Positions 8,925-26,688 of a stretch of 64,000 nucleotides of DNA are shown here, piece by piece; position 1 is the stretch's first letter, and every line of letters starts with the position of its first letter. Source of the stretch: Ignavibacteriales bacterium (GTDB lineage Bacteria > Bacteroidota > Ignavibacteria > UBA10030); the NCBI GenBank assembly GCA_026390575.1, contig JAPLFR010000008.1, forward strand, positions 310,001-374,000, in the 5' to 3' direction. Both the position numbers and the translations under genes were made by a program. Below the pieces are notes generated by a model. That model was not told where the DNA came from. It ran no database searches and saw nothing but the letters and a program-made list of their open reading frames with translations.

Positions 8925-10032
8925 TTATGACTTCGTTGAAAATTCCAGAAGATAGCTCTTGATGAATTCATCAATTGCACCATCCATGACAGCTTGCACA
9001 TCTCCTTTTTCTGTTCCCGTTCGATGATCTTTGACAAGTTGATAGGGCTGAAATGTATATGAACGGATCTGGCTTCCCCATTCAATTCTCTTCTTGGTGC
9101 TTTCAATTGCACTTAGCCGCGCTTCTTCTTCTTCACGGCGAATTTGATAGAGGCGGGATTTCAACATTTTCATTGCGCGTTCGCGATTCTGAAATTGCGA
9201 GCGTTCCTCCTGGCATGCAACAATAACACCGGAAGGAATATGGGTGATACGCACTGCAGTTTCGACTTTGTTGACATTCTGACCGCCCTTGCCGCCGGAG
9301 CGATATGTATCAATTTTCAAATCCGAAGGATTAATTTCGATTGCCACATCGTCTTCAATTTCAGGATAGACAAACACGGAGGAAAATGATGTATGCCTGC
9401 GGGCATTTGCATCGAATGGTGAAATGCGCACAAGCCTGTGCACGCCAATCTCTGCCTTTAAATATCCATACGCATACTTACCGATGATTTCAATCGTTGC
9501 ACTTTTAATGCCTGCGCCCTCGCCTTCCAGCATATCGGCAAGGAATATTTTTAATCCGTGACGCTCGCACCATCGGGAATACATGCGTAAAAGCATTTCC
9601 GCCCAATCTTGCGCTTCAGTACCGCCTGCTCCGGAGTGAATTGTCAAAAATGCATTTTTCTCGTCATCCGGACCACTCAGCATATTTTTGAGTTCGAGAT
9701 TTTCTATACCGATACGAAGCTTTTCAATATCTCGTTTTGCTTCCGTCTCATAACTCGTTTCCTGAGCTTCCTCCGCCATCTCAATCAATGATGCCGTGTC
9801 TCGACACAGAACTTCAAGTGCGTTCCAGGCATCAATCCATTCTTTCCTCCCATTGATTTCTTGGATGACTTTCTGTGCAGCGACATTATCATTCCAAAAT
9901 CCGTCTGTGGTCGTCCGTGCCTGATATTCTTTTAATTCCTGTTCCTTTTTATCGAGGTCAAAGATACCCCCGAAGTGCGTCGATGCGTTTTTGTTGTTCT
10001 TCCAACTGTGTTCGTAAATCAAGAAAGCTCAA
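8925..10032 (-). CDS. prfB: Peptide chain release factor 2, with programmed +1 frameshift
   Basis: RF2 releases peptides at UGA and UAA codons. The coding sequence is in two frames. Frame one starts at TTG 10032, with AAAGGAG about 8 nt upstream, and encodes 24 residues ending ALRGYL. A UGA stop at 9958-9960 is bypassed by +1 slippage on CTT, and the main frame continues [10 protein letters not shown] to 8925. The product is about 368 aa, the normal size. The anticodon-like SPF tripeptide ([10 protein letters not shown]) and the catalytic GGQ ([10 protein letters not shown]) are both present. An automated call in one frame would wrongly start at TTG 10022 with an unrelated N-terminus. Confidence 0.96.
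9957..9972 (-). promoter_or_regulatory. RF2 autoregulatory frameshift site
   Basis: The minus strand reads CGGGGGTATCTTTGAC. This has the internal Shine-Dalgarno-like GGGGG, the slippery CTT, the in-frame UGA stop and a following C. It differs from the E. coli site only in the first base. When RF2 is scarce the UGA is read slowly and ribosomes slip +1 to make more RF2; this mechanism is well established for the family. Confidence 0.95.
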
Positions 10033-18027: not shown

Positions 18028-18912
18028 TTACGCCAACTGTATTTCCATTCCTTCAGCAGCACCGAAACAATGTATTGAAGACTTTTGTGTTGCAAGTAAT
18101 TTTTGTGTGTACTTTACCAATGCATCAATTGAGGCATCGTCGTGTGCTGGGTCGTGGTGGTACAGAGCCAACTGCTTCACATTTGCCTTAATCGCAAACT
18201 CTACAATCGATTCGATAGGTGAGTGTCCCCAACCTATCTTTGACCTGTATTCTTCCAAAGTGTATTGCCCTTCACTCACGATGAAATCAGCCTCACTGAT
18301 AAAATCGATGAACTTCTGGTCCAGCTCTGCGCCATACTGCGCAGCAAGCGGATTTTTACGAGGAGCACGATGTGTGTACCGATAAGGTTCGTTATCTGTA
18401 GCATAGACGAATGTTTTTTTCCCATCGAATATTTTGTAAGCGAACGTTATCGCGGGATGGTTTAAATAGAACGGAGTTATTTGCAAATCGCCGATACGGA
18501 ACGGTCCGCGGACTTCCTGCATAACGATCTGTGCGTTTAAGCCGCCTAATGGTACCGGAAAATATTCTGATTCCATCTGGGATTTAAATAATTCGTTAAG
18601 ACTTTTATAGCGCGCTGGCGGGCCGTACACATTGATCTGAAAGTTTTTGTTGTACGCCGGCATGAAAAAAGGAAATCCTTGAATATGATCCCAATGTGTA
18701 TGGCTAATGAAGAGATGGAGTGTGACTGGCTCCAATTTAAATTCATTAAGAAGCTGATTGCCAAGGTCCCGGATGCCCGTGCCTGCGTCAAAAATGAGTA
18801 TATGTTCTCTAACACGCACTTCCACGCAGGAAGTGTTACCGCCGTACTTCACCGTCGATTTACCCGGTGAGGGAATAGATCCCCGTGTTCCCCAAAATTG
18901 AATCTTCATCAT
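18028..18912 (-). CDS. Metallo-beta-lactamase-fold hydrolase (PhnP/CpdA-like)
   Basis: A 294-aa cytoplasmic MBL-fold protein. It starts MMKIQFWGTRGSIPSPG, as in the subgroup containing cyclic phosphate phosphodiesterases and RNase Z-like proteins. The metal-binding motif HTHWDH is at about residues 91-96. Further metal ligands are likely in YATDNE and in ALYHHDPAHDD, which ends the domain. The substrate cannot be inferred; cyclic nucleotide or phosphoribosyl cyclic phosphate hydrolysis are options within the family. It stands alone, followed by the tRNA-Arg gene and preceded by a 900-nt repeat region. Confidence 0.82.
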   Translation of the reverse strand: MMKIQFWGTRGSIPSPGKSTVKYGGNTSCVEVRVREHILIFDAGTGIRDLGNQLLNEFKLEPVTLHLFISHTHWDHIQGFPFFMPAYNKNFQINVYGPPARYKSLNELFKSQMESEYFPVPLGGLNAQIVMQEVRGPFRIGDLQITPFYLNHPAITFAYKIFDGKKTFVYATDNEPYRYTHRAPRKNPLAAQYGAELDQKFIDFISEADFIVSEGQYTLEEYRSKIGWGHSPIESIVEFAIKANVKQLALYHHDPAHDDASIDALVKYTQKLLATQKSSIHCFGAAEGMEIQLA

Positions 18913-19821
18913 TATTAACTCATTCGCTCATTCATAGGTTCGATGGCGATTTTAAGAAACTCTTTGATCTAAAAAGTATATACAATATACGAATCAGCAC
19001 TGGGTTCCATCGCCTTATCTAAGACTGGTTTGTAATATTTTATTCTGCCTTTGTAAGGACGTGTGGTGATACGTCCTTACGGGGATTTTCCTTTATCCAC
19101 CGAAGTCCTGTTTCCCCAGACGCAGGTGGACTCCACAATCTTTATCTCTTCTTCCTAAACCCGCGATCACCGCTTGCATTCCCGCCAAAATGTAGAATCT
19201 CTGCCTGCTCGCCGACCTGCCCGCCGAACAAGTTCTCTGGCAGGCGGGCGCACTTCGTGCATAGGCGAGCTTGCGGAAGGCATGCGATCACCGATCGGAT
19301 CGTTTTCCTCAATCGTCCGATTTATTAATCGCCTGCGTAGCGTCCGACTCGTAGTCGGACATTCAAGCTCGTTTCCTACTCTTTGTCCAGCTATGAGCTG
19401 GACTCCACCCTTTTTTCCCCAACAACTCCGCCAACGCTTGCCCTGAGCTTGTTGAAGGGCCACCCATTTCCCTTCGGAGTTTTTATGCTCCCAAATTGCC
19501 ATTCATTTGTAGAATCCGATCACCGATCGGATCGTTTTCCTCAATCGTCCGATGTGATCATCGGACTCTACGTTTTTTCCCCAACAACTCCGCCAACGCT
19601 TGCCCTGAGCTTGTTGAAGGGCCACCCATTTCAATGTTTTGCTTTTATCGGGACATTGGTTTGTCCGCCATGCTTTGTGGCGGGTACCTATGGCGATTAA
19701 ATGTTTTTCTTCTCGCTCCCAAGCTCTGCTTGGGAGCGTTGCTTTTAAGATTCTGATCCCCTATACGAAGCAGAGCATCGAAAGATTACGTTCCCAAACA
19801 GAGTTTGGGAACGAGGGAAAT
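18913..19821. repeat. Non-coding mosaic of short palindromic repeats
   Basis: No convincing gene lies in this 900-nt stretch. It is built from short palindromes with 3-8 nt centres, several repeated elsewhere in the window. Examples are GTAAGGACGT/ACGTCCTTAC (19053-19080), a CCGATC...GATCGG unit (19285-19321 and again 19518-19553), GTCCGACTCGTAGTCGGAC and GTCCAGCTATGAGCTGGAC (about 19347-19403), and a direct repeat containing GCCAACGCTTGCCCTGAGC at about 19428 and 19585. It ends in a 104-nt inverted-repeat element. Open frames crossing it are repeat-derived. Confidence 0.8.
19712..19815. mobile_element. MITE-like inverted-repeat element, copy 1
   Basis: A 104-nt unit with 17-nt inverted ends: CTCGCTCCCAAGCTCTG on the left and the complement of CTCGTTCCCAAACTCTG on the right, 15 of 17 identical. 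Each end is itself a hairpin (CTCCCAAGC-TCT-GCTTGGGAG and TTCCCAAAC-AGA-GTTTGGGAA). It has no coding capacity. Copies 2 and 3 are at 20967-21125 and 28434-28488. Confidence 0.7.
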
Positions 19822-20655
19822 CTATTTTGTTGTGGATGAATCAGGGACGGCGTTTTTCACCGTTTCATTTCCTAATGTGCCTTGGCCCAATGTGAACATC
19901 TGGTAGTATGCATTCATCAACTTTGCCATCATCATGGTACCCGCTGAATTAACAAGTGCATCGTGATCCTCCGATGCGGCAAACACAAACAGCAACGTCA
20001 CTTTTCCCTTGAACGATTCCGGCAGTGCTATGTCGGAGCCTTCGAATGTTTTGACGCTGAACGAGGGAAGTGGTTTCCCAAGATACGCATAAAATTCCTG
20101 CCTCTTGCCGAGCGTGAACAACGCCTTGGGTTTGGCATCCGCTTTTTCTTTTGCCAGGGTCGTTTGGAACGGACTTGTTTCGTCGACGGTGATCGCTTCC
20201 TTGCCATCAAGGTTCAACAGAAGTTCTTCCACTAACCGGTTGAAACGGCGCGGATCAAACATGGTCGATTGGCAATGTGCGCGAATGATTCCTTTCCGAT
20301 CGATGGCCAGTACAGTAAAATTGTTCGAATTAAGTTCCAGCACCGAATCGACGGTGGCAGAAAACGCCCTGCCCGACGCGCTCTTTCCGCCAAACGATAT
20401 ACCGAACGCGCTTTGCGATTTCAGCTTCTTGTACGTCGAGTCGGCGAGTGTCGGGAACAGGAATGTCACATTCATTTTGTCCTTGAAAATCCCGCCGACA
20501 ACATGTTTGGCTGTGGTGAGGTCTTCTGCCATTCCGATTCCTACGATGTTGAGCTTCGGCAGAGGATTGTTGCTATATCGTTCAACAAGCTGGGCGGTCG
20601 CGATGGAACCACCTGTGATCAGGGCGATGAGCGTGATAACGATGATGCGTTGCAT
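19822..20655 (-). CDS. Secreted protein with a redoxin-like C-terminal domain lacking the CXXC
   Basis: A 277-aa protein with an N-terminal signal peptide (MQRIIVITLIALITGGSIATAQ) and a good ribosome binding site, AAAGGAG. The middle is not recognised. From about residue 195, LGKPLPSFSVKTFEGSDIALPESFKGKVTLLFVFAASEDHD resembles the start of an AhpC/TlpA-type thioredoxin fold, but where a WCxxC would lie it reads FAASEDHDA. Only one cysteine is visible in the mature protein, so thiol redox activity is unlikely. It ends within 7 nt of a repeat element. Base composition looks more GC-rich than the neighbouring island. Function unknown; periplasmic or outer location is inferred from the signal. 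Confidence 0.6.
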   Translation of the reverse strand: MQRIIVITLIALITGGSIATAQLVERYSNNPLPKLNIVGIGMAEDLTTAKHVVGGIFKDKMNVTFLFPTLADSTYKKLKSQSAFGISFGGKSASGRAFSATVDSVLELNSNNFTVLAIDRKGIIRAHCQSTMFDPRRFNRLVEELLLNLDGKEAITVDETSPFQTTLAKEKADAKPKALFTLGKRQEFYAYLGKPLPSFSVKTFEGSDIALPESFKGKVTLLFVFAASEDHDALVNSAGTMMMAKLMNAYYQMFTLGQGTLGNETVKNAVPDSSTTK

Positions 20656-20805
20656 GGTAAGCTCCTTTCAATTGGGAACGGCGGCAGCGGATTGGGCTCC
20701 CCCCTTCAAACGATCCCGCCGTAATGCGTGGCCGGCGTTACGTCTATTAGTTAAAACTGTTCAATTACAGTTACAACAAAAGTAAACCTGAAATTCGTTA
20801 TATGC

Positions 20806-20873
20806 AAGAAAGACAGCAATTCATTCCGTATCCAATTTTCAACATCTTTTGGAGCAATAGTTGAATCTGTCAT
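20806..20873 (-). pseudogene. N-terminal remnant of a paralogue of the 21417-21791 gene
   Basis: Reading from ATG 20873 on the minus strand gives MTDSTIAPKDVENWIRNEL and then unrelated sequence. The neighbouring gene starts MANSTIATKEVENWIRNEF, so about 19 residues are shared at high identity at both protein and DNA level. The rest of the gene is missing, and an inverted-repeat element lies on the far side. Confidence 0.7.
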
Positions 20874-20966
20874 TTTGTAATCGTTTCCCTAAAACACTTC
20901 TTCCGATCACTTCTTTCTCAATGTATTAATTGTGTCCCAATCACCAGTGTTGTTCTTGATATCCTT

Positions 20967-21125
20967 CTCGCTCCCAAGCTCTGCTTGGGAGCGATGCTTT
21001 TAAGATTCTGATTCCCTTATACGAAGCAGAGCTTCGAAAGATTAATTATGATAATATCTGCGTTTTTATAGCATTCGGCTAACGCCGGAATGATTTTATA
21101 TGCTCAAACAGAGTTTGGGAACGAG
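20967..21125. mobile_element. MITE-like inverted-repeat element, copy 2
   Basis: Same left end as copy 1 (CTCGCTCCCAAGCTCTGCTT) and same right end (AACAGAGTTTGGGAACGAG), and the internal GCTTTTAAGATTCTGAT block is shared. About 55 nt of extra AT-rich sequence lies between the internal block and the right end, with a small CGGCTAACGCCG hairpin. Non-coding. Confidence 0.7.
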
Positions 21126-21416
21126 GGGAAAATGTACAATCCAGTCACTGACCGGATCGCTCACTTGCAACCGTCCGATGTGATCATCGCCTGCGTAGCG
21201 TCCGACTCTTAGTCGGACATTCAAGCTCGTTTCCTACTCTTTGTCCAGCTATGAGCTGGACTCTACGCTTTATTTCCCCAACAACTCCGCCAACGCTTGT
21301 GGTGAGCTTGTCGAACCACCACCCATCTCAATATATTGTTTTTCTTTTGTAGAGACGTATAATTCTTGCCCGCCATGTTGTTTGGCGGGATATGTCTCTA
21401 CGAGGATTACCGTGCC

Positions 21417-21791
21417 TCATTTTGTTTTCACTAGCAGCGTTTTAATATGCTTGGGAAATCGTCCAAGGCCTTGTTCTTTTTTGATAAGCTCGACCATGGA
21501 TCTATCTGTGCACGCAAACACAATTGTGTCCGGTTTCTCACTGAGCGACACTGCCCAAAAAGCAACCTCGCGGATTTTCGAAAGCCCTGGATTCTCGACT
21601 GTTGTGGTACTTACACTTGTTGAAATAAAACAGACAATCTTTCCATCTTCAGAAACAGCGTCGCATTCAAATTCCCCGCCGGATTGTACGCTTAATTTGC
21701 GCTTTGTAAATGCCTGACCATACTTCTTGGAGAGGAATTCGTTCCGTATCCAATTTTCAACTTCTTTTGTCGCTATAGTTGAGTTTGCCAT
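21417..21791 (-). CDS. Hypothetical protein, possible degenerate restriction-endonuclease-like fold
   Basis: A 124-aa soluble protein from ATG 21791. A TTG eight codons further upstream is possible, but the truncated duplicate at 20873 also begins at the ATG-equivalent position, which supports 21791. The core GGEFECDAVSEDGKIVCFIST has the spacing of a PD-(D/E)XK core (D followed by a beta strand), but the expected E-x-K is replaced by serine and threonine. A helix and the strand TIVFACTD follow. If the fold is right, the nuclease is inactive. It lies 81 nt from the gene at 21873-22094 on the same strand, so it may belong to the DpnI island. Function is not known. Confidence 0.55.
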   Translation of the reverse strand: MANSTIATKEVENWIRNEFLSKKYGQAFTKRKLSVQSGGEFECDAVSEDGKIVCFISTSVSTTTVENPGLSKIREVAFWAVSLSEKPDTIVFACTDRSMVELIKKEQGLGRFPKHIKTLLVKTK

Positions 21792-21872
21792 TGCGAAATT
21801 ATCTATGAGTTGCAATCGAGACTATATTTAATAAATCATTTTGATCTTGTTCGTTACACCATATTCATTTCG

Positions 21873-22094
21873 TCAAGACTTATTTGAAATAATGTTTTTT
21901 GCGATTTTATACAACGATAAGTCCTCATTCTCACTAATTTCAATTACTTCGTTTAGAGGAATATTGTAGGCGATAATAATTTTTTCCAGCTTATGATTAA
22001 TTGTTGTCATAAAAGGATTTATATTTATGCCCCAGAATGTAATATTATCGTTTTGTACTAGGTAAAAATTGTTTCCATCATTTATCTGTTTCAT
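21873..22094 (-). CDS. Small unknown protein downstream of dpnD
   Basis: A 73-aa, AT-rich frame whose ATG overlaps the end of dpnD by 17 nt, the tight spacing expected of an operon member. The product has a beta-rich start (NNFYLVQNDNITFWGININ) and a C-terminal helix ending IAKNIISNKS. I do not recognise a family. It has the same low-GC composition as dpnI and dpnD, so it probably arrived with them. It may be a genuine third island gene or a residual frame; the overlap argues for the former. Confidence 0.5.
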   Translation of the reverse strand: MKQINDGNNFYLVQNDNITFWGININPFMTTINHKLEKIIIAYNIPLNEVIEISENEDLSLYKIAKNIISNKS

Positions 22095-22392
22095 AATATT
22101 CTTTCGCTGAAGTCAAATCTCCGAAAACAATTTTTGCTAACTCTTCAATTGGCAATTCATTTACTTCTTTGGCAAGTTGTAATCTGATAAAAGAAGAAAA
22201 AGCAGCAACATCAACATCTAGATGTAACAATGGAACGTCTATTGATGTTTCGATATGGTCAGAATAGTCTAGAACAATCTCTTCATTCTTATATCGACGC
22301 GATACAAGATCAACTGCCTCTTCTATCGATTTTGCATTTACATTGATACTACGTTTTAATACTTCTCTCACTTCAACGTTATATGTTTCCAT
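22078..22392 (-). CDS. dpnD: DpnD/PcfM-family protein
   Basis: A 104-aa acidic protein. The N-terminal 50 residues (YNVEVREVLKRSINVNAKS, then EEAVDLVSRRYKNEEIVLD) match the DpnD/PcfM domain, in which a short strand, a conserved EAL/EAV helix and the EIVLD motif recur. In Streptococcus pneumoniae dpnD follows dpnC (the DpnI nuclease) in the DpnI cassette, and its role is unclear. Here it overlaps the end of the DpnI homologue by 14 nt, the same order. The C-terminal half is not conserved in any way I recognise. Confidence 0.75.
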   Translation of the reverse strand: METYNVEVREVLKRSINVNAKSIEEAVDLVSRRYKNEEIVLDYSDHIETSIDVPLLHLDVDVAAFSSFIRLQLAKEVNELPIEELAKIVFGDLTSAKEYYETDK

Positions 22393-23161
22393 TTCTCAGA
22401 TTCCTATATTTGCCTTTCGAAACGAATTTAAGTATACCTTTATCTCTCAATATTTGTAACTGCTGACGTATTTTATCTTTTATAAAATTATTGTTTGGAA
22501 ATTTCTTTTTTAAGTCAGGTTCAAACTTATATAGTTCATCCAAATCAAAATCTGTTTTTCTGAGCTTATCTATACAAGACAATATTTCAAGCGTCCATCC
22601 TCTTGCTTCGAAAGAAACATTATTCAAGAAAGTGGTCTGCTTCCATCGTCTTAGTACATCTTTTTGATTTACGACGGTTGAATTTTTTATTATATAAATT
22701 CGTCCAAGTATTGGAACATTTTTTATGTTAATATAGCATCCAATCCAGCCTGCTCTTCTTGCGGACATGCTTAAAGGATTTCTCTTTTCTATTATTGAAG
22801 GAATAAAGAATTGTTTTGGAATAATAAGTAAAATCACAACGGACAATATTCGTACATCATATGTAAGCAAGAATAAGTTGGGATTAGTAGTTGATGATAT
22901 TCTTTTTATCATTGACTCATAAGCGCCATCAATAATTTTGTGCCTCAATTCGCCTTTGTTACTTTTCAATTCATATTCTTCTTTACAAGTGTGGCAATAA
23001 AAATCAGCAACAGGTCTATTGTTGTTGAACACACATAGTTTACTATTGCCACAATTTGGGCAATAGCTATTAGTACTAATCCAACTTTCAGTCATAACTC
23101 TAGCTATTTGAGAGTTGCTTTTATACGATCCTGCTTTTTCAGTATTGAATAATAGGTTCAT
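22379..23161 (-). CDS. dpnC: DpnI-type methyl-dependent restriction endonuclease
   Basis: A 260-aa homologue of DpnI, which cleaves G(m6A)TC only when adenine is methylated. The N-terminal PD-(D/E)XK nuclease keeps D53 and E64-x-K66 (EELKS-type strand YELKSNKG), and a zinc site has C34, C37, C56 and C59 (YCPNCG, FYCHTC). TARRAGWIGC in DpnI corresponds to SARRAGWIGC here. The C-terminal winged-helix domain that reads methylated DNA is recognisable as IRQQLQILRDKGIL. Length matches DpnI (about 254 aa). Base composition is clearly AT-richer than the backbone, suggesting transfer. No dam-type methylase is in the window, as expected for a DpnI host. Confidence 0.93.
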   Translation of the reverse strand: MNLLFNTEKAGSYKSNSQIARVMTESWISTNSYCPNCGNSKLCVFNNNRPVADFYCHTCKEEYELKSNKGELRHKIIDGAYESMIKRISSTTNPNLFLLTYDVRILSVVILLIIPKQFFIPSIIEKRNPLSMSARRAGWIGCYINIKNVPILGRIYIIKNSTVVNQKDVLRRWKQTTFLNNVSFEARGWTLEILSCIDKLRKTDFDLDELYKFEPDLKKKFPNNNFIKDKIRQQLQILRDKGILKFVSKGKYRNLRNGNI

Positions 23162-23346
23162 ATCAAATTAATTTAAATGCATATCGCATCCCGTTTGGAG
23201 GGGCATTTGTTAAGATTTAAGCAAACCTCGTATCTTGTTCAACCTTCACTTCTTTTCATTTGTGAAATCAACGACTAATAGTCTTCCACAATTGATTTTC
23301 TAATTCTTCGTAAGGAGATATAGAACAATACACCTCTAATGTCATG

Positions 23347-23427
23347 TTGTTCAGTGGTAATACTTGGCTGGATATCGCTGAATGGCCCCAATTTTGGCTC
23401 ACGTTATTCGGAAGCAATGTAGCCAAA
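23347..23427. repeat. 81-nt foldable direct repeat, copy 1
   Basis: It aligns without gaps to 24997-25077, with 11 differences by eye. The ends TGGCT and AGCCA pair; inside them ATATCGC faces GCAATGT and GAAT faces ATTC, leaving a variable apical part. On the minus strand it begins about 50 nt past a terminator. Function unknown: structured RNA, recombination site or small repeat element are possible. Confidence 0.65.
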
Positions 23428-23478
23428 AGGTTTTTTAATCACAAGGCAGGGATTTGTGTATGTCTCTAAATTGAAATA

Positions 23479-23515
23479 TAAAAAAGCCCGAGTGCACTAA
23501 TAGACACAAGGGCTT
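23479..23515 (-). terminator. Rho-independent terminator after the lipoprotein gene
   Basis: On the minus strand AAGCCC pairs with GGGCTT across a 20-nt loop that can itself pair partly, followed by TTTTTTA. It lies 86 nt past the stop of the 23601-24026 gene. Confidence 0.75.
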
Positions 23516-23600
23516 ATGGAATTATTACGAATCGTTCCAAAAAAGAAGTTAAGGAATCAGGATAAATCGTCTCTTGAAGACGATAATATTGTCCGATGGA

Positions 23601-24026
23601 TTAATCGGTAAATTCAACTATATCCGCACGAATAGTGATCTTAGGCTGCGTATAGACGATCAAATTGAGAGCATCTGAATCGTACCGCACGTTGATGAGT
23701 GCAAGCCTCTTTCCTTCAACAGGTCCATATGCAGTCTCGTAGCTTTTCCATAAGTTTTCGAGAGCTTCTTTATACAGCATACCTGATCCGCTGACACGAA
23801 CGAGTGCGAAAGTGTTGCTGACCATTCCCATGGAGAAAGTTCCGCCTATAAGATATCCCGCCTGGGCTTCTCCAGAAATATTCCGGGCAACTATTTTAAA
23901 ATTGCTTTTTTGAAGCTGAACATCCGTCACATTGCTTGCCATGAATGCACCTCCGGCTGAACAACCGGAAATCAGCACGCTTATACCTATGAACGCGCAC
24001 ACAAGAATAAAATATTTTGTTGTCAT
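23601..24026 (-). CDS. Small lipoprotein, DUF6567/TRL-like
   Basis: A 141-aa protein from ATG 24026, preceded by AAAGGAG. The N-terminus MTTKYFILVCAFIGISVLISGCSAGG is a signal peptide with a lipobox (LISGC), so it should be lipidated by the Lgt-LspA-Lnt pathway and sorted by Lol. The mature part (TDVQLQKSNFKIVARNISGEAQAGYLIG, then ALVRVSGSGMLYKEALENLW) fits the DUF6567 family of Bacteroidota-type lipoproteins, whose role is unknown. The longer frame to 24107 adds a non-signal-like extension and was rejected. It stands alone with its own terminator. Confidence 0.75.
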   Translation of the reverse strand: MTTKYFILVCAFIGISVLISGCSAGGAFMASNVTDVQLQKSNFKIVARNISGEAQAGYLIGGTFSMGMVSNTFALVRVSGSGMLYKEALENLWKSYETAYGPVEGKRLALINVRYDSDALNLIVYTQPKITIRADIVEFTD

Positions 24027-24340
24027 GAATAGACTCTCCTTTGAAGAAATTGTTATGAGATATGAAAAGGACGATGCAAGATGAACATTGCTATTTGTAT
24101 TGCGCATCGTTGATGTTTTTAAAAAATTGATTTGTAACTTATTCTTTTATACGAGATCGGACAAATGAAGTTGCGTTTTATGTAATAAACCTAAGTTGGG
24201 AGGGAGATATACTCCCGACCCCATTGTAGTTCAGGAGTCTCGCCTGCGTTTCACTTCGGCGAGCAAGCCAATTCCTTCACAACCAATGGTAATTTGATAA
24301 TTTCTGTTCGCCACTATCTTTGAGCGCAAAGGAACCCCTC

Positions 24341-24395
24341 TGTCCCGATGAATTAAGATTCATCGGGACAACCTCCCCTTGAAAATAAGGGGAGG
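24341..24395. repeat. Two adjacent perfect hairpins
   Basis: TGTCCCGATGAAT pairs with ATTCATCGGGACA (13 bp, loop TAAG) at 24341-24370, followed at once by CCTCCCCTT/AAGGGGAGG (9 bp, loop GAAAAT) at 24372-24395. There is no T run, so they are not simple terminators; they look like REP-type palindromes. Confidence 0.75.
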
Positions 24396-24578
24396 ACAGG
24401 CAGCCACGAATTGGTGGCATTGCCAAAAGTCCCGCTGTATGTCTGCCTGCCGTGTAGTTCTTCAGTATTTCGGTAACACGAATTGTATATTTAGATAATA
24501 TTTTCGATACATAGGTGTTATCTCAAAGTTGATATGAATAAATCGGGTAAGATCCCGATAGAAAACAGCAGGATTCTC

Positions 24579-24636
24579 ATTCCGATTGCATACTTAACAT
24601 CTCCCACTATGCGGGATCGTTAAGTCTGATCGGAAT
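24579..24636. repeat. Long imperfect palindrome
   Basis: ATTCCGAT pairs with ATCGGAAT at the ends, CTTAAC with GTTAAG further in, and ATCTCCC with GGGAT near the tip. The 58-nt unit can form one long interrupted stem. It is non-coding and seen once in the window. Confidence 0.65.
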
Positions 24637-24783
24637 GGCACTTCAATCGATTTCGCCTGCTCAATAAAAGATTGATATAAGATTTTATATCGACCCTGCC
24701 CCATTCGTAGCCTCCGTTATTCGAAAAAGTTCGTGTCCTCTTTCTCCAAGACGCCGGGGATGAGGGATGTTTTTCTTGAAACC

Positions 24784-24816
24784 ACCTCTCCGACCGCTTT
24801 CAGCGATCGGAGAGGT
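24784..24816. repeat. REP-like palindrome, copy 1
   Basis: ACCTCTCCGACCGCT and AGCGATCGGAGAGGT pair across TTC, with one G/T-type mismatch. The left flank CCGGGGATGAGGGATG leads to CTTGAAACC. The same unit recurs at 27141-27173 and 32790-32822 with a shared CTTGARAYC flank. Confidence 0.75.
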
Positions 24817-24996
24817 AATACAAAATAGGCTTTGTATCGTTACATACTTACCGCTCAGCCGCCGGGAATATTTTAGGGAACCGAAAGATGGTGGTTCCAA
24901 ATTATATTTTTATTCTTGTATTGGTGAAATTTCTTCAGCGATCAATCTTCGGATAATTATTATATTATTTATTGAATTATTATTAATAATGTCTGA

Positions 24997-25077
24997 TTGT
25001 TCAATGGTAATACATGGCTGGATATCGCTGAATTAGCTCAATATCGACTCACGATATTCGGAAGCAATATAGCCAAA
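24997..25077. repeat. 81-nt foldable direct repeat, copy 2
   Basis: Ungapped match to 23347-23427, exactly 1650 nt away. In this copy the minus strand can also form an apical hairpin ATATCG-TGAGT-CGATAT inside the shared outer stem. It begins about 34 nt past the GH30 terminator in the direction of transcription. Confidence 0.65.
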
Positions 25078-25110
25078 CCTCTTCATGTTTGCAATGGTCG
25101 TAACCTTTAA

Positions 25111-25147
25111 AACAAAAATCCCCAGCGTATTACTAAACACCGGGGAT
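25111..25147 (-). terminator. Rho-independent terminator after the GH30 gene
   Basis: On the minus strand ATCCCC pairs with GGGGAT, with an inner GTGTT/AATAC pairing, followed by TTTTTGTTTT. It lies about 80 nt past the GH30 stop. Confidence 0.8.
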
Positions 25148-25227
25148 GAAGAATATTTTATTCCGTGTTATGCTTCGTTTCAATTCTCCTTCAGAAATTC
25201 CACAGGTTTAAGCTTCTTTTTTCCGGA

Positions 25228-26688
25228 TTAATAAACAAGCGTTTGAATGGCATGCGGTAAAATATTAATCTTTGCCTCTGAAGAATCTAAAATGAAATTA
25301 TACGTTATCGGTTTATCACTCACATTCATTATAATAGTTGCCATTGTACCATCTTCATTCATAAACGAAACACTAAGCAGCTGGCTTCTGCTTGAAGCAG
25401 TACTTACTCTTTTTGCATTTGGACGAATAAATTTTGAGAAGTGTCCAATGTAATAATATGAGGGGGTATAAATTAATTGGCCTGTTTTAGTGTCGGCATG
25501 GATAGGTGCAAAACAAAAATTTCCAACGTGATTTGGGCCTCCATTTTCATCTAAAAGAATGTTCCAATCTGTCCATCCCACCGTGCCAACATTAAAATCG
25601 TTTATGATTGACCGCCCATATCTTTCACCATTTGCCCAATCGTAATACTTTTCTGGAGTAAATGACCCATTACATCCTTCGGTAAATAAAATGTTTTTCG
25701 ATGGATATGCTTCATGTACTTTTGCAATATTGCCATACAGAGGATCACTGCCAGTCCATGTCTCGTACCAATGAAATCCAATACCCCATGCATATTTTGA
25801 AGCAACTGAATCGGTAAAAATCGTGCTCGCCCTTTGATTAATTAAATCCCGATTATGATCCCATACAATTATCTTTTTATCGCCTAATCCTTGTTTATTC
25901 ATAATTGGGCCTAAATAGTTCTTTAAAAAATCTCTCTCTTCTTCTGAGGTATAAATGCACGATTCCCATCGTTGAGTAGCCATAGGCTCATTTTGGATGG
26001 TAACACCCCAAACAGGAATTCCTTCTTTTTCGTAAGCTTTAATAAATTTAGTAAAATAATTTGCCCAGGCATTGTAATACTCGGGCAATAATTTACCTCC
26101 GTGCAACATATCATTGTTGTCCTTCATAAATGCAGGAGGACTCCAGGGACTGGCAAATATTACAAGTTTGTTACTTGCAGTTTTCATCGCTTGTTTAATG
26201 AAAGGAATACGAAATGTTTTATCATGATCGATACTAAATGTTTTTAGGTCTTTATCACCATCCTCAACATAAGAATAAGTTTCGCTGCTAAAATCGCAAC
26301 TATTGATCTGCGTACGTGCTAGAGTATAGCCTATCCCCTTAGCTTTATCATAATAAGCATCGATAAGTTCTTGTTTTTTGTCATTAGGTAATTTGGCAAA
26401 TGTCTCGGCACTTGCATCTGTTAATGCTCCTCCGATACCTATGATAGTCTGAAACGTTTTGTGAGGATTCACAAAAACAGAGATATCTGTTTCTAAAGGT
26501 TGTATTGCTTTTGTAAAATCAATTGTATCAGTTACAGTTAATCTTTCATTTGTCCCATAAGATGTAGAATGCACGGTTATATTTTTAACCGCAGATGAAA
26601 ATATTATTTTATCATTTTGTGCTTTTGTATTCTGAGAAAACACAGAACCTGATAAGAACGATAATAAAATTACAAAGTATGTTTTCAT
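25228..26688 (-). CDS. Secreted GH30-family glucosylceramidase-like glycosidase
   Basis: A 486-aa exported glycoside hydrolase of family 30 (clan A TIM barrel plus beta-sandwich). The signal peptide is MKTYFVILLSFLSGSVFSQ. The barrel begins QTIIGIGGALTDASAETFAKL. The acid/base is E234 in VTIQNEP and the nucleophile is E337 in LFTEGC. The C-terminal sandwich (about 400-486) includes SYYYIGHFSKFIRPNAKRV. Family members act on beta-1,6- or beta-1,4-glucans, glucosylceramide or xylan, so the substrate is open; 'glucosylceramidase' is the usual label. It is AT-richer than backbone genes and flanked by repeats, suggesting acquisition from a Bacteroidota-like donor. Confidence 0.92.
   Translation of the reverse strand: MKTYFVILLSFLSGSVFSQNTKAQNDKIIFSSAVKNITVHSTSYGTNERLTVTDTIDFTKAIQPLETDISVFVNPHKTFQTIIGIGGALTDASAETFAKLPNDKKQELIDAYYDKAKGIGYTLARTQINSCDFSSETYSYVEDGDKDLKTFSIDHDKTFRIPFIKQAMKTASNKLVIFASPWSPPAFMKDNNDMLHGGKLLPEYYNAWANYFTKFIKAYEKEGIPVWGVTIQNEPMATQRWESCIYTSEEERDFLKNYLGPIMNKQGLGDKKIIVWDHNRDLINQRASTIFTDSVASKYAWGIGFHWYETWTGSDPLYGNIAKVHEAYPSKNILFTEGCNGSFTPEKYYDWANGERYGRSIINDFNVGTVGWTDWNILLDENGGPNHVGNFCFAPIHADTKTGQLIYTPSYYYIGHFSKFIRPNAKRVSTASSRSQLLSVSFMNEDGTMATIIMNVSDKPITYNFILDSSEAKINILPHAIQTLVY

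Follow-up and report, generated by a model that had tools for sequence, protein, structure and literature searches.

A dpnI–dpnD cassette with a recurrent third gene, a candidate methyl-directed restriction system in an Ignavibacteriales bacterium

Laboratories make very wide use of the enzyme DpnI. A relative of its gene lies in the window analysed here (the whole 64,000-nt stretch of DNA from an Ignavibacteriales bacterium) ahead of three smaller genes in the same direction, and the question that this locus raises is which of them form a system with the nuclease and what they might do for it. An earlier note on this DNA had described a DpnI–DpnD cassette and proposed that two further genes, of 73 and 124 aa (here p73 and p124), may be regulators or partners of methyl-directed restriction should they recur with dpnI elsewhere.

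DpnI, its overlapping neighbours and the extent of the cassette

The product of dpnI (22379–23161, minus strand, 260 aa) matches PF06044 (3.8e-75, residues 1–181), the C-terminal winged-helix domain PF17726 (9.7e-33, residues 185–253), the PADLOC model mREase_II (1.7e-106) and the DpnI crystal structure PDB 4esj (1e-87 over 255 residues). D53, E64 and K66 are identical in 82/82 aligned DpnI rows, window included, and so are the zinc cysteines C34, C37, C56 and C59; along with the PF17726 match, this bears out the claim that nuclease residues, zinc cysteines and winged helix are all kept. E64 and K66 are presumably catalytic, an assignment taken over from the earlier note. By homology, the protein is predicted to be a GmATC-directed restriction endonuclease made of a PD-(D/E)XK domain and a winged-helix domain; two domains of R.DpnI are described in an excerpt of PMC4117772.

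Directly behind dpnI, and overlapping it by 14 nt, comes dpnD (22078–22392, minus strand), whose small acidic DpnD/PcfM-like product of 104 aa matches PF14207 (4.3e-14; 52.7 bits against a cut-off of 25), so that both families and the overlap are as first described. The C-terminal extension of this DpnD resembles, in the alignment, that of its best match (L098). Within the excerpts of the literature searched, no paper on DpnD function was found. The third gene, p73 (21873–22094, minus strand, 73 aa), was likewise characterised correctly: it overlaps dpnD by 17 nt, is AT-rich and matches no Pfam, NCBIfam or PADLOC family, its PHROG matches being weak (best E 0.006). The overlaps suggest that DpnD and p73 would be translated together with DpnI.

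This arrangement resembles the Streptococcus pneumoniae cassette, in which dpnD presumably stands beside dpnI with no methylase inside. As in the pneumococcal dpnC–dpnD cassette, the window has dpnI with an adjoining dpnD and is methylase-free; it differs in adding p73 and in belonging to a distant bacterium. The genes of the pneumococcal dpnI locus are named dpnC and dpnD in the excerpted source.

Composition sets the three genes apart, with GC values of 0.309 (dpnI), 0.327 (dpnD) and 0.270 (p73) against 0.427 for p124 and 0.426 for the window. Among 1265 windows of dpnI length only six match dpnI in AT-richness, and every one of them falls on the cassette (five start at 21751–22051 and the sixth at 22401); for p73 length it is three out of 2552, of which two fall on the cassette and the third is at 26501. 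Since low GC stops at p73 and p124 is host-like, the foreign block ends at p73 by composition, and the AT-rich stretch 21873–23161 may be read as a single horizontally acquired operon, dpnI–dpnD–p73. A 16-kb sequence from a genome of the same genus (G400), compared with window positions 10000–35000, aligns only at 19821–20812, so no clean insertion site can be read. Rfam gave zero matches in 18900–24800, and promoter-like sites are not enriched (9 against 12.3 in shuffles). Dispersed repeats are common to 19310–19820 and 20957–21343 (e.g. 111 nt at 91% and 61 nt at 92%), one of them with a 12-pair hairpin.

As to the source of the block, no relative of dpnI, p73 or p124 found by pattern scans of the viral_contigs collection was confirmed by tblastn at 1e-3, and a viral origin of the cassette was rejected on this ground. 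A human-faecal phage record holds a single DpnI match, which is partial and covers 32% of the query. The only dpnI matches in the plasmid collection are two Neisseria gonorrhoeae records, each chromosome-sized (2.17 Mb). Among 395 genomes of the phylum, dpnI is above cut-off in eight.

The cassette as a whole might also be decaying and inactive. Pointing that way, the window protein sits on a long end branch (0.96) of a DpnI tree of 82 rows, from which duplicates (L001, L003, L006) and short or broken copies (L005, L039, L042) had been dropped, and the last three loci, with no dpnI ORF of 240 aa, carry broken dpnI copies. In the window itself, however, the three frames are open, neither overlap has been lost and no catalytic or zinc residue is missing, which makes decay improbable in our judgement.

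Next to p73, at a distance of 81 nt and in the same orientation, comes p124 (21417–21791, minus strand; 124 aa with an ATG start, 132 aa with the TTG at 21815). It had been credited with a PD-(D/E)XK-like core lacking E-x-K, and could on that reading be a degenerate nuclease partner of the cassette, for which its adjacency and orientation speak. We could not confirm such a core: nothing in Pfam scores below 0.1 and no PDB-profile match is meaningful. Against a partnership, p124 has host-like GC, is found in 0/80 dpnI loci (the best 80 of at least 544, in the available DNA up to 6 kb on each side) and has homologues that do without dpnI, one in a genome of the same order (G251, 48% identity, no dpnI match) and others on two Azospirillum plasmids (30%, no dpnI match on these plasmids). 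Its product is basic (pI 9.0), unlike the acidic small proteins of the cassette, and a 5′ remnant of a second p124 copy lies nearby, outside the cassette like p124 itself (20812–20881, minus strand, 81% over 70 nt). A degenerate partner is hardly credible on these grounds; p124 adjoins the cassette as an unrelated gene and does not belong to it, and the proposal that it is a partner falls.

Recurrence of p73 with dpnI

A scan of one genome per species (84,980 species) confirmed at least 544 dpnI loci, of which the best 80 were kept, so the sampled loci are those closest to the query. They include two near-duplicate pairs (L033/L050 and L074/L086), and seven of the 80 have less than 6 kb of sequence in all.

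Relatives of p73 stand behind dpnD in 4/80 of these best loci out of at least 544 (L033, L040, L050 and L061). The near-identical L033 and L050 carry p73 as the C-terminal half of a natural DpnD fusion, whose predicted fold (mean pLDDT 58.6) is usable for the DpnD half only. In L040 and L061, p73 is a separate gene, and between it and dpnD sits a relative of the RhuM-family gene of L041.

A further case comes from the same phylum. Genome G260 has dpnI on one contig (L002), with a dpnD frame behind it that breaks off after 49 codons, close to where the contig ends; a second contig (L102) opens with a frame running from a start that resembles a dpnD tail by eye, and that the DpnD profile does not match, into p73, and continues with a dpnA-like frame. 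We infer that the two contigs are one locus that was split, perhaps through an insertion. Among the 395 phylum genomes, p73 occurs in the window genome and in G260, both dpnI-positive; a third match (G078, E 0.003) is at chance level and missed by the p73 profile. Across 98 genomes of the order of G260, p73 is found in one and dpnI in two.

On the DpnI tree, at least four gains or losses are required to account for the six p73-bearing rows (L002 being labelled as such on the reading that the two G260 contigs form one locus), which indicates that the link between p73 and dpnI recurs. The p73 label is nonetheless more clustered than in most shuffles (4/500 as low), partly via near-copies.

The family offers little by way of known relatives. 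None of its six members matches Pfam. An AlphaFold2 model of p73 is confident (mean pLDDT 90.2), with the order beta-beta-beta-alpha-beta-alpha, and fold comparison of this model returned nothing significant (best Foldseek E 0.47 against the PDB and 0.21 against viral structures; best VIA match Z 3.8, rmsd 3.3 over 73 residues).

Could p73 instead be a separate passenger, such as the remnant of a mobile or toxin–antitoxin element, with no role in the DpnI system? Its rarity (4/80 dpnI loci) and the RhuM-related gene separating it from dpnD in L040 and L061 would fit. Set against this are the overlap with dpnD in the window, the fusion to DpnD in L033/L050, the four or more gains or losses on the DpnI tree and the fact that searches of the 395 phylum genomes and of viral and plasmid collections brought up no other confident homologue. 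We think a mere passenger rather unlikely, and hypothesise that p73 is a regulator or partner. Being rare among dpnI loci (and two of the four being near-identical), p73 cannot be required for DpnI. The test that the earlier note had set, recurrence with dpnI/dpnD, is thus passed by p73 in four of 80 loci and in G260, and its idea of regulators or partners survives as a hypothesis for this gene and fails for p124, found in none of the 80 loci.

An alternative to dpnD and methylase genes beside dpnI

Behind dpnI in the best 80 of at least 544 loci comes either dpnD (43/80) or p67 (22/80), an acidic gene some 67 codons long, and never both (Fisher 3e-10, kinship ignored); the remaining 15 have neither. 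A common profile of p67 and DpnD, or of p73 and either of them, was rejected at hhalign probabilities <1%. By this measure, p67 is not detectably related to DpnD, though their patterns look alike by eye.

In 20 of the 22 p67 loci a convergent gene for a phage-type adenine methylase is present up to about 1.35 kb behind dpnI (examples are L021, L025, L027, L036 and L059). Eighteen of the 20 are full length with an NPPY motif and two are broken. The methylase of one p67 locus matches PF05869 (37 bits, cut-off 28); this assignment and that of PF13310 each rest on a single protein, other loci being matched by HMMs built here. Were this methylase to make GmATC, DpnI would cut the host.

A second kind of methylase neighbour recalls DpnII-type systems (dpnM–dpnA–dpnB). 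Many dpnI cassettes of other bacteria adjoin dpnM and/or dpnA sequence (38/80, with both in 19/80; e.g. L032, L041, L061 and L066), dpnM lying just upstream of dpnI in 29/80 and dpnA downstream in 28/80. All 14 near-complete dpnM genes that were aligned lack the terminal RGxxxELLxxNY of the two intact relatives aligned with them and run into a common repeat-like stretch ahead of dpnI; they keep the catalytic motifs where these can be read, and that of L037 is split between two frames. The divergent dpnM of L008, outside this alignment, is shortened at its end too.

Downstream, dpnA retains both catalytic motifs in eight loci (L032, L037, L041, L042, L043, L047, L066 and L082), as do the dpnA of L081 (upstream, other strand) and a distant copy in L088. 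An ATG precedes the conserved start in L041 alone; in L037, L042, L043 and L047 an ATG lies just inside it, and the remaining three have only TTG or none. In L042, dpnI itself is broken. Judging by their motifs, some of the dpnA copies near dpnI could be active, and such copies argue against a simple story of lost methylases. Four loci without dpnD or p67 (L045, L049, L093 and L100) carry a DpnA-like methylase or a piece of one directly upstream of dpnI, and pieces of a DpnII-type nuclease gene follow dpnI–dpnD in Streptococcus anginosus (L068, 7192–7392).

How the cassettes came to stand there can be sketched from intact systems. On the Lactococcus plasmid pSRQ700 the two methylase genes of an intact system overlap, so the dpnI cassette may sit at their junction. 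A Psychrobacter plasmid system, whose dpnM is closer to the survey copies, has one methylase gene and then the nuclease gene, so the ancestral order may have been either. No paper on a dpnM–dpnI–dpnA arrangement outside Neisseria was found in the literature searched, part of it in excerpt.

Neisseria provides the described precedent: drg is a DpnI relative displacing dam, according to excerpts of PMC4269198 and PMC516771. Like the window gene, drg in these excerpts is a DpnI relative of low GC in a setting where Dam activity is absent. Unlike it, drg is an insertion next to leuS, at the dam locus or within it, whereas no trace of an adjoining GATC methylase gene was found for the window cassette. 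An excerpt of PMC4269198 mentions that gonococcal drg is followed by a 'DPNIIB-like' gene; in the two N. gonorrhoeae records, a dpnA relative follows about 0.3 kb behind the dpnI match.

The window cassette also parts from the DpnII-type surroundings. In six frames of 19001–26000 the dpnM and dpnA HMMs find no homology beyond chance (best 2.8 bits for D12 and 3.8 bits for DpnA). The idea that remnants of these two genes or of a phage-type dam adjoin the cassette was rejected, scores being at chance level only.

GATC methylation in the host and a possible mode of action

The full-genome check for a dam-like GATC methylase that the earlier note had called for turned up no recognised one. PF05869 has no match in the window genome. 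PF02086 has one, a permuted enzyme of 362 aa (24.2 bits, cut-off 22); another permuted enzyme (745 aa) scores 24.9 bits in a protein-level scan, and both match PF01555 better than PF02086. The PF01555 model itself matches 12 stretches, corresponding to seven gene loci, these two and a 962-aa methylase among them. None of the seven reaches an NCBIfam methylase cut-off, and none matches a Dam, DpnM or DpnA model as a whole. One of them adjoins an MjaI-type nuclease gene (PF09568; G000:C10:17216-20908, L013); this methylase, the only one of the seven compared with the PDB, has its closest match there in 2zie (5e-55), and a chain labelled DpnA aligns with it over residues 189–257 only (8e-8). From these searches, the genome appears to have no recognised Dam-, DpnM- or DpnA-type methylase, its seven putative methylase loci being of unassigned specificity.

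Two very similar permuted methylases lie on different contigs (G000:C16:575 kb, L015; G000:C9:346 kb, L016). GATC counts in the window (313 observed, 357 expected) are uninformative on methylation. CTAG is depleted in the window (27 observed, 49 expected), in a genome with an MjaI-type nuclease gene beside a methylase gene.

Given its strong homology, the window DpnI would cut DNA with N6-methyladenine in GATC. It would need no partner methylase, and the host's own GATC would have to stay unmethylated, a requirement that the absence of a recognised Dam-type methylase fits. DpnD and p73 would most likely bind or adjust DpnI and not be needed for cleavage; they might, for example, restrain DpnI when methylated GATC appears in the host. 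Isoelectric points, for which there is no control set, are opposite: 8.9–9.8 in 6/6 DpnI rows, 4.1–5.0 in 27/27 DpnD rows, 4.1–5.1 in 6/6 p73 rows and 4.1–4.6 in 20/20 p67 rows, the window p73 being the least acidic of its family (pI 5.1, charge −2.4). The DpnD–p73 fusion and the exclusion between dpnD and p67, along with these opposite charges taken without a control, make a binding or restraining role attractive.

Overall, we regard as highly probable an acquired dpnI–dpnD–p73 operon with a GmATC-cutting DpnI, on which DpnD and p73 likely act, and an unrelated p124. As far as sequence comparison goes, the locus is most likely a cassette for methyl-directed restriction whose third gene recurs elsewhere. 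It is tempting to go further and speculate, though we do not lean towards it, that DpnI is the core of a modular system held in check by interchangeable acidic partners, DpnD or p67, with p73 added on or fused. If so, a cell could acquire or carry GATC-methylating genes beside DpnI without cutting its own chromosome. What the survey newly brings out is that dpnI can be accompanied by a third gene, that another gene takes the place of dpnD and never occurs with it in the sampled loci, and that cassettes occur next to GATC-methylase genes that are damaged; p73, p67 and the damaged methylases are testable candidates for the control of the nuclease and for the displacement of methylating systems.
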